Assembly (NCBI RefSeq): GCF_006716815.1
Contig: NZ_VFPS01000005.1
Coordinates: 1-64,000, forward strand
Direction of reading: 5' to 3'
Source: Microbacterium lacticum
Lineage (GTDB): Bacteria > Actinomycetota > Actinomycetes > Actinomycetales > Microbacteriaceae
DNA length: 64,000 nt
Part shown: piece by piece, positions 11,910 through 14,676 of the stretch
How the letters are laid out: every line of letters begins with the position of its first letter
Position numbering within the stretch: the first letter of the stretch is position 1
Position numbers and translations under genes: made by a program
Notes under the pieces: model-generated
The model's database searches: none
Told to the model about the DNA's origin: nothing
Seen by the model: the letters and a program-made list of their open reading frames with translations, nothing else

Positions 11910-12487
11910 CTACGCGGTGAGGGTGTATCGGCGCCGCCCGCCGGGGCGCGGAGTGCGGGATCGATCGATCCAGGGCGGTGGGATGAGCCACACCAGGGCG
12001 TCGACTCCGACCCCGTCGATCGTGATCTCCCACCCCTCGTCGTGGAGGCGATGGTGGCAGGCGGTGCACAGCAGCGCCCCGTTGGTGAGGTCGTGGTTCC
12101 GCCGTGACTCCACCACTCGAGGTGATGGACTTCGGTCCACGCGACCGGTGCACCGCAGCAGGCGCATCCGCCGTCGCGCTCGGCCAGGGCGCGGCGCTGG
12201 GCGCGGGTGCCTCGCGAACCTGCACGAGCCTGATCGCTTCGCCGACGCTCGAGCCGGTGGTCGCCTGGATGAGCGCGACGGGGGAGCGGAACCCCTGCTT
12301 CTTGGCGATCGAGTCTTTGCCGAGTTCGACGCGCGACTGCCGGGCGATCTCGCTCGCGACCGAGGCGAACGCCGCATCGACGTGTCGCTTCAGCGCACCG
12401 AAGGCGGCGTTCACCGCGATGAGCTCACTCGGCGTGAGCGCCGCGGCGGGGCGCTCCGCGACCCGTGCCTCACGGATCGAGCCCGCT
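11910..12487 (-). pseudogene. relic of a DUF222/13E12-type HNH endonuclease
   Basis: Two conserved pieces of the family are fused by a large internal deletion. N-terminal piece: ALTPSELIAVNAAFGALKRH through GEAIRLVQVREAP. C-terminal piece: RAQRRALAERDGGCACCGAP, VHHLEWWSHGG, then LTNGALLCTACHHRLHDEGW. The pieces are out of frame at the deletion point near 12205, and a second frame shift falls near 12100 inside the HNH core. The start is missing: the reading frame runs back into the 3' end of the upstream hydrolase gene. A complete member of the same broad family is at 58931-60364. Confidence 0.75.
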
Positions 12488-13072
12488 CTCTTCGCCGGAG
12501 AGCGCCTCGATGAGCGCCACAGCGCGGGGCCAGTACCGGGCGTAGTGGTCGGGATCCTGGTTGATCTGCGTGCGGTGCGCGACGAGAGTCGGTGCGAGGG
12601 TGTCACGGTCGGGCGCGCGCATGATCATCGCGCGGTAGAAGAGCGTCGCAGATATATAGGGGTCGAGCCGTTCTGCCCGGCTGCCCCAGCCGTCCTGCTG
12701 TTGGAAGAGTCCGATCGAGGTCGTCGGCGTCCCGTCGGGGTTGGTGACTCCGCTCGTCTCCCCGTCGCCATGGTCGATGTTCCGCAGCGACGACTCGCCC
12801 ATCGCGGTCATGATCCCGATCGCCTGGTCGCGCACCGACAGGCCGAGGTCGCGCGCGGCGCGCATGATCGTCGCGGCGTTGTCGCGCTGCTCCTGGTCGT
12901 AGTCGGCGACGACCGGCGGTGAGCTGAGTGGAGCGAGCGAGCGGATGCCCGAGAACGCCCCCAGGGCGGATGCCACGATCAGTCCCGCAGCGAGCAGAGG
13001 CATCCCGGCGATCGCGATGACCGTCCAGACGCGATCGCGTCTCCTGGGTGGCGTGCGCACCATAGAGGGCAT
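12470..13072 (-). CDS. SLT-like peptidoglycan hydrolase, membrane-anchored
   Basis: 200-aa extracytoplasmic protein with one N-terminal membrane segment (WTVIAIAGMPLLAAGLIVAS). The rest matches the lytic-transglycosylase-like family common in Micrococcales: RDQAIGIMTAMGESSLRNID supplies the catalytic Glu in GESSL, then SIGLFQQQDGWGS, LDPYISATLFYRAM and THRTQIN-type sequence as AHRTQIN. It probably cleaves peptidoglycan glycan strands. It overlaps the 5' edge of the HNH relic, and its own 3' end is intact. No clear ribosome site precedes ATG 13072. Confidence 0.7.
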   Translation of the reverse strand: MPSMVRTPPRRRDRVWTVIAIAGMPLLAAGLIVASALGAFSGIRSLAPLSSPPVVADYDQEQRDNAATIMRAARDLGLSVRDQAIGIMTAMGESSLRNIDHGDGETSGVTNPDGTPTTSIGLFQQQDGWGSRAERLDPYISATLFYRAMIMRAPDRDTLAPTLVAHRTQINQDPDHYARYWPRAVALIEALSGEESGLDP

Positions 13073-13135: not shown

Positions 13136-13729
13136 TCAGCGTGTGGCGAGTGACACCACTCGGGCGACCTGATCGAGCCCGGGGCTCATCTGAGCTGCGG
13201 ACAACTGATAGGTCGCCCACGGGCGGCGATAGGGGTCGACGACGTCGTCGTCGGCGGGGTCGTCGGGCGGAGCGCTCAGCCCCCGCCTGGCCGCGACGAT
13301 CGCCACCGCCGCCCGCACGCGTGCTGCCGCGTCCGGTCCCGCGGATGCGACAGCGCTGACGATGTCGGCGTCCGGAATTCCGGTCGCGAGTCGGGCGAAC
13401 TCGCGAACGGTGAAGGACGAGCGCAGTCGCGCCGGGGCCAGCTGGGCGACTCGTCCTCGGTGCTCCCGGCTCATCGCGAGGATCAGGTCGGGCGAGTCGA
13501 GGTGGGCCGCCGTGAGGTAGCGGGACCGATGCGCGCTCGCCGCCCCGGCGTCGGCGCCCATGGCCACGACAAGGCGCTGCGCCTCCGGCGTCATCGGCGC
13601 CGCATCCAGTCCCTGGGTGCCCGCGCTGTGCACGCGCCCGCCCAGCTGTTCGAGGGTGCCGCGCAACACCACTTCCGCCAGCGGCGACCGGCAGATGTTT
13701 CCCGTGCACACGACGAGGATCTCGAACAT
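13136..13729 (-). CDS. low-molecular-weight protein tyrosine phosphatase
   Basis: 197-aa cytoplasmic phosphatase. The P-loop [10 protein letters not shown] near the N-terminus has nucleophile Cys8 and Arg14 (CX5R), followed by SAGTQ and LAMSREHR. The C-terminal [10 protein letters not shown] carries the general-acid Asp in a slightly unusual context (family usually DPxxxP). The substrate is unknown; relatives act on tyrosine kinases of polysaccharide export or on arginine phosphate. ATG 13729 is fixed by the P-loop position, and a TACGCT box lies 6 nt upstream, suggesting a leaderless mRNA. Confidence 0.88.
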
Positions 13730-13830
13730 GCCGTCAGCGTATCGAGCGCACCGGGCGTGACCGGCGGCGCGGGCGGAAAACGCGGCGGCGCGGCGATGGC
13801 GGCGCGGAGCGCGACCCGATAGGGTTTGAG

Positions 13831-14022
13831 GTGTTGCGGATCCCGACCGCGACACGCTCGGACCTCGGCCGAAAGGTCGGTGTCGGCACGACGGCTGTGC
13901 CGTCGCGCACGCAGGCCCCCGGCTGTGTCCCCACACAACCGGCTCGGTGTTCGCCGACCCCCGCGTGCGAACACCCGCCGGGAGGCCGAGTCTCGAATCT
14001 CGGCCTCCCGGTCTTTCTCTCT
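13831..14022 (+). ncRNA. candidate structured small RNA with C-rich loops (6C-like)
   Basis: No protein fits this stretch. TAGGGT at 13820-13825 predicts transcription from about 13832. Then come hairpins at 13889-13905 (7-bp stem CGACGGC), 13919-13942 (CCGG stem with CCCC loop), 13947-13974 (8-bp stem GTGTTCGC with CCCCC in the loop) and a perfect 13-bp terminator stem at 13978-14011 followed by TCTTTCTCTCT. The C-rich loops plus a terminator resemble the actinobacterial 6C RNA, but the runs here have five C at most, so the family assignment is tentative. Confidence 0.5.
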
Positions 14023-14057
14023 GCGCCGCACGCCCCATGGGCCCCGACGCGGCCGGT

Positions 14058-14086
14058 TTGGCCGAGGCGTCCACATGGCGTAGACT
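14058..14086 (+). promoter_or_regulatory. promoter of rplM-rpsI
   Basis: TTGGCC (14058-14063), 17 nt, TAGACT (14081-14086). Transcription would start near 14093, leaving a leader of about 137 nt before rplM. No L13-binding structure was identified in that leader. Confidence 0.6.
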
Positions 14087-14229
14087 CGACGTTTGGTGTC
14101 CGTGCTGCCTGCGGCCGGCGCCACGAACGTGAGCCCTCCACTGGCGTGTTCCCTCCGATCACCGGAACGGAACCACCCCGGAGTGGGATTCACGAACCTC
14201 TCCGTTCGAATCAAGAAAGCAGCACTACT

Positions 14230-14676
14230 GTGACGCGCACCTACACCCCCAAGGCCGGTGAAGTGACCCGTGAGTGGGTCGTCATCGACGCGACCGACGT
14301 CGTTCTCGGACGCCTCGCCTCGCACGCCGCCGCGATCCTCCGCGGCAAGAACAAGCCCACCTTCGCCAACCACATCGACACCGGTGACTTCGTCGTCGTC
14401 ATCAACGCCGACAAGGTCGCGCTGACGGGTCAGAAGCTCCAGAAGAAGATGGCCTACCGTCACTCGGGCTACCCGGGCGGCCTCACGGCGACCTCCTACG
14501 CGGAGCTGCTCGAGAAGAACCCGGTCCGCGCCGTCGAGAAGGCGATCCGCGGCATGCTCCCCAAGAACAGCCTGGGTCGCCAGCAGCTGTCGAAGCTGAA
14601 GGTCTACGTCGGTGCCGAGCACCCGCACGCGGCTCAGCAGCCCACTCCCTACACCTTCGACCAGGTCGCCCAGTAA
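14230..14676 (+). CDS. rplM: 50S ribosomal protein L13
   Basis: 148 aa, the standard length. [40 protein letters not shown] and [13 protein letters not shown] are characteristic L13 blocks. Start is GTG, set by the N-terminal TRTYTPKAG sequence; AAGAAAG lies 10 nt upstream. First gene of the rplM-rpsI-glmM run, with rpsI 26 nt downstream. Confidence 0.97.

Follow-up and report, generated by a model that had tools for sequence, protein, structure and literature searches.

The DNA between a divergent phosphatase gene and rplM in Microbacterium lacticum, within the 64,000-nucleotide stretch analysed here (the window), raises the question of whether it encodes an RNA of its own and, if so, of what kind. 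The original prediction placed an unannotated structured RNA there; the features of the locus are collected in Table 1.

Table 1. Features of the rplM locus in the window (window coordinates).
Feature	Position	Strand	Remarks
Divergent low-molecular-weight phosphotyrosine phosphatase gene	13136-13729	-	PF01451
Candidate small RNA region	13820-14022	+	Between divergent phosphatase gene and rplM
-10 box of candidate small RNA	13820-13825	+	TAGGGT; TANNNT is a loose motif
5' hairpin	13831-13855	+	From fold; loop ATCCCGA, three Cs; similar hairpin seen by eye in nearest relative (L045)
Small RNA transcript (predicted)	13832-14022	+	~190 nt; start placed from the -10 box, to within a few bases
Middle hairpin	13889-13905	+	From fold; loop not C-rich, no C-run
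Core hairpin 1	13919-13942	+	CCCC loop at 13929-13932, putative seed
Core hairpin 2	13946-13975	+	CCCCC in loop at 13958-13962, putative main seed
Intrinsic terminator	13977-14022	+	Stem 13977-14012, then pyrimidine tail to 14022
-10 box of rplM	14081-14086	+	TAGACT; inferred separate promoter
Conserved structured rplM leader	14123-14224	+	Separate element; candidate L13 autoregulatory leader
rplM	14230-14676	+	Ribosomal protein L13; TIGR01066, PF00572

The predicted fold of the candidate RNA has an energy of -107.1 kcal/mol, compared with -81.05 +/- 4.31 kcal/mol in 200 dinucleotide shuffles (z -6.04), and none of the 200 shuffles folded as well. No match to it was found in Rfam 15 at E<=10, and the proposal of an unannotated structured RNA is therefore upheld. 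Three hairpins with C-rich loops had been described, which is accurate for two loops, those of the core hairpins; the first loop has three Cs, and there is a fourth hairpin without a C-run. The terminator and its pyrimidine tail are present as predicted and were the sole site returned by a terminator scan (14 pairs, 11 of them G-C; shuffle mean 0.4, sd 0.7). The predicted -10 box is also present at the start of the region, and a -10 box for rplM lies beyond the terminator. The same scan detected no two-hexamer sigma-70-type promoter before either the small RNA or rplM, and neither the scan nor inspection by eye yielded a -35 hexamer for the candidate small RNA; both promoters therefore rest on their -10 boxes. 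Several frames hold open reading frames that cross the region, and the claim that it lacks coding potential nevertheless holds in substance, as carriers of the element show conserved loops, covarying stems and single-base indels despite these frames. One open frame (13831-14676) spans the whole RNA and the leader and runs in frame into rplM; it was read as an artefact of G+C content.

The distribution of the element was examined within the genus and beyond it. A DNA search matched 146 of 149 genus genomes, in most cases by way of the leader close to rplM, and among 30 fetched loci the element was seen upstream of rplM in five (L007, L008, L016, L021 and L025) besides the window. A first covariance model, built from six sequences, matched 13 of 366 genomes of the genus; 12 were kept as carriers (48-95.5 bits), and G051 (38.7 bits) was rejected as a member when its locus was read by eye. 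A model rebuilt from the 12 carrier sequences recovered the same 12 among 361 genomes of the genus, with members scoring 65-93 bits. Five further genomes at 30.9-36.6 bits (E 0.005-0.05) were rejected, these scores being at chance level over 361 genomes and the sequences unlike the family by eye. The element lies upstream of rplM, in the same direction, in all 12 carriers, and the best score among 36 non-carrier loci searched with filters off was 18.8 bits. An order-wide scan with the model, in which filters lose weak matches, matched one of 396 genomes, and a family-wide pattern scan, in which the sample held only six genomes of the genus, matched one of 299; in each case this was the window's own genome. 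When the named genome collection was scanned with a strict pattern, the seven matches were all Microbacterium, including M. hominis, M. paulum, M. flavum and Microbacterium sp. oral taxon 186.

In an rplM-rpsI tree of 53 loci, a branch supported at 100/99 sets the carriers apart from the other loci, and it was recovered in 200/200 bootstrap trees; the tree was rooted at its midpoint, includes 41 of the 354 non-carriers and lacks L083. In the nearest non-carriers (G008 and G145), the DNA upstream of rplM is different by eye and scores at chance level with filters off. The carrier clade would most simply be explained by a single gain of the element, with losses elsewhere also possible. The spread across Microbacteriaceae that the original prediction led one to expect was not found, the carriers being one clade of one genus. 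Searches for a plasmid match to window positions 13780-14100 and for a phage match to 13905-14022 returned nothing from collections in which records near the window's own genome may be absent, and a mobile origin was rejected on that basis.

Covariation of the stems was one of the checks proposed with the original prediction, and it was found in the carriers. Over 11 distinct, closely related sequences, for which the shuffle control overstates significance, core pairs were formed in 93.3% of cells compared with 88.2 +/- 0.9% after shuffling (0/500 shuffles as high) and with 30-49% in slid controls, which keep the relatedness of the sequences and point the same way. Both sides of a pair had changed in 11 cells (3.1 +/- 1.3 shuffled; 0/500 as high), and double changes occurred at five pairs (2.2 shuffled; 1/500 as high). 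The covariation score of the core was reached by few or none of 500 shuffles; the number of 'further pair types' in the core showed no excess (445/500 as high). In hairpin 1, 89.1% of cells were paired, and one of its pairs failed to form in 6 of the 11 sequences.

The C-runs of both loops and the GCG that follows the second run are kept in the 12 members, and the stems vary by compensation. Loop 1 has four or five Cs and loop 2 has six in the 11 other carriers; the window copy has four and five, and it lacks a 5' C-run found in several relatives. The longer motif GCGUG follows the C-run in 11 of the 12 members. A TANNNT motif lies 36-87 nt before the core in every carrier, in the form TAGNNT in 11, and L048 has what appears by eye to be a better -10 box, CATAAT. 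In all 12, the core is followed immediately by a strong hairpin. By eye, its stem is followed by a run of four or more T in five carriers and of three or more in nine; the tails of L047 and L044 are pyrimidine stretches only, and L048 has no T-rich tail. To judge by these alignments, the element is conserved as an RNA in 12 of 366 genomes of the genus.

The explanation that we consider probable is that the element is a stand-alone, trans-acting small RNA of ~190 nt, transcribed toward rplM from its own promoter and ended by its own terminator, whose C-rich loops would pair with G-tracts. As the upstream neighbour is divergent in the window, a promoter belonging to the element is the simplest reading. 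Three carriers have poor terminator tails, which, together with the negative promoter scan, weakens this explanation.

Alternatively, the element could derive from a galU transcript, its 3' untranslated region being set free by processing, and would then not be an independent gene. In its favour, the gene next upstream is a co-directional galU in three carriers, identified by a family scan in L040 and by eye in L044 and L048, and in L037, L038, L039, L041, L042 and L044 the end of a same-strand open reading frame coincides with the TAG of the -10 box. The latter coincidence weighs little, because a spurious open reading frame ends at the TAG in the window too. Moreover, the RNA and a -10-like box are still present where galU is not the neighbour: the gene upstream is the divergent phosphatase in the window and an amidase gene on the other strand in L043. 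An origin by processing of a galU transcript is therefore unlikely.

The constant position of the element in the 12 carriers could also indicate cis control of L13 synthesis, with the element as an rplM leader or attenuator. However, the terminator ends the element before the rplM -10 box, a TANNNT-type rplM -10 box is also found in the non-carrier loci examined, and rplM already has a conserved leader of its own. In G047, ~1.8 kb separates the small RNA from that leader. For duplexes between the two loops and the rplM mRNA in 11 of the 12 carriers (G047 was left out), 26-170 of 200 shuffles did as well or better, and cis-control of rplM by loop pairing was rejected, as the pairing did not rise above shuffles. 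The change of upstream neighbour between carriers and the gap in G047 also speak against a role in cis, to which we give little chance. The location beside rplM is most likely an inherited position and not a sign of rplM control.

The neighbouring leader is a candidate regulator in its own right. In an alignment of 26 genus sequences, taken from 53 distinct ones, the ~100 nt before rplM are conserved as near-invariant blocks around a variable hairpin. Across 327 genomes of the order, a model of the leader matched 26; these fall into 6 of the 102 genera sampled, all within the window's family, and an L13-like reading frame follows at each of the 17 leader loci read. A wider alignment of 23 rows comprised 15 of the 16 weakest model matches, the window and seven other loci of the genus, leaving out L112 (a poor 5' match) and L088-L096. 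In the outer helix, 15 cells had changed on both sides compared with 4.6 +/- 1.5 after shuffling (0/500 as high), at two covarying pairs, a number of pairs reached by 465/500 shuffles; the inner helix is invariant and thus uninformative on covariation. No Rfam 15 match to the leader was found at E<=10. A survey of ribosomal leaders (PMC7247131) lists E. coli, Firmicutes and Bacteroidia as having L13 leaders, and the region at 14123-14224, a candidate L13 autoregulatory leader, would add one for Actinobacteria if it proves to be such. The small RNA shares with the L13 leaders named in that survey its place upstream of rplM; it differs in ending in a terminator before rplM's own -10 box.

A relationship to 6C RNA (RF01066; B11 in mycobacteria) was suggested by the original prediction, which described the element as similar to 6C but not an exact match. 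This assessment agrees with our results: the element has C-loop hairpins, yet RF01066 gave no match at E<=10 for 13700-14250 and none in the window at its gathering score (47 bits), and the genome carries a 6C-type RNA on another contig (G000:C2:253396-253469, equivalent to L001 1501-1574; 46.2 bits, below the gathering score). The element might still be a divergent copy of 6C RNA itself, as it has the same build of two C-loop hairpins and a terminator, and the element-family model scores weakly on the 6C RNA at 11 6C loci, with 12.1-20.7 bits over it at ten of them and 11.7 bits partly over it at the eleventh. However, another place in the same 6C loci reaches 22.0 bits, so that these matches are near background and far from the scores of members, and the likeness to 6C is one of shape. 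In addition, RF01066 found nothing over the element at E<=10 in L006, L007, L008, L016, L021 and L025, and when 20 genomes were searched none of the 12 matches at E<=0.01 lay at the rplM locus, whereas 9 of the 12 carriers matched elsewhere. In the 6C copies that were read, the second C-loop hairpin appears by eye to be the terminator as well, whereas the terminator of the element is separate. Membership of 6C was rejected because there is no RF01066 match at E<=10 and a 6C-type RNA lies elsewhere in 9 of the 12 carriers; the prospect that the element is nonetheless a divergent 6C copy is slim.

The element and 6C are thus alike as small actinobacterial RNAs with two C-run-loop hairpins and a terminator, the element having its own terminator in the window and a strong hairpin in all 12 carriers, with the T-rich tail missing or poor in three. 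6C RNA has two stem-loops with typically six Cs each (PMC4046766), and the loops of the element have 4-5 and 5-6. The element further differs in its locus, in coexisting with a 6C-type RNA in 9 of 12 carriers and in being found, so far, in one Microbacterium clade. No title or abstract opening among the literature matches listed describes the small RNA. The C-rich-loop RNA appears to represent a small RNA family that escapes detection by Rfam 15 and is confined to one clade of Microbacterium.

In the 20 genus genomes, RF01066 had 11 matches at E<=0.001; nine of them scored below the gathering score of 47, and annotation at that score would miss these 6C-type RNAs.

It is very improbable that the element is merely a strong terminator region with chance hairpins and not a functional RNA: high G+C DNA folds readily, but the fold is at z -6.0 against dinucleotide shuffles, the stems covary, and the C-rich loop columns are conserved in 12/12 carriers.

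A stand-alone small RNA of this kind would be transcribed from its own promoter toward rplM and would end at its own terminator, and its two stable stems would expose the C-rich loops CCCC and ACCCCC(C)G. These loops could then pair with G-tracts at or near the ribosome-binding sites of target mRNAs, as reported for 6C/B11, and the pairing would block translation of the targets or destabilise their mRNAs. C-rich unpaired seed loops aimed at Shine-Dalgarno regions are also a feature of the RsaE-type small RNAs of Gram-positive bacteria, to which the element is similar, by description alone, in its C-rich seeds. By analogy, the element probably acts as 6C/B11 does, through its C-rich loops on G-tracts near ribosome-binding sites. 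For B11, pairing of the C-rich loops with such G-tracts is described as leading to target repression (PMC10470900, PMC12395582), and predictions of targets from G-tracts are called inaccurate in one of these reports (PMC12395582).

More tentatively, the small RNA may have arisen a single time at the root of one Microbacterium clade, have converged on the C-loop architecture of 6C and act beside 6C on overlapping G-tract targets, with GCGUG perhaps giving it targets of its own or a protein partner; we regard this history as possible, if somewhat less likely than not. If true, it would provide a datable origin of a global regulator. Close relatives with and without the element offer a setting for studying how a small RNA arises and how it overlaps with the older 6C.

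At lower coordinates than the phosphatase gene, on the minus strand, a 200-aa open reading frame (12470-13072) has no Pfam or NCBIfam match, and a protein that appears by eye to be similar to it is encoded near the RNA in L047.
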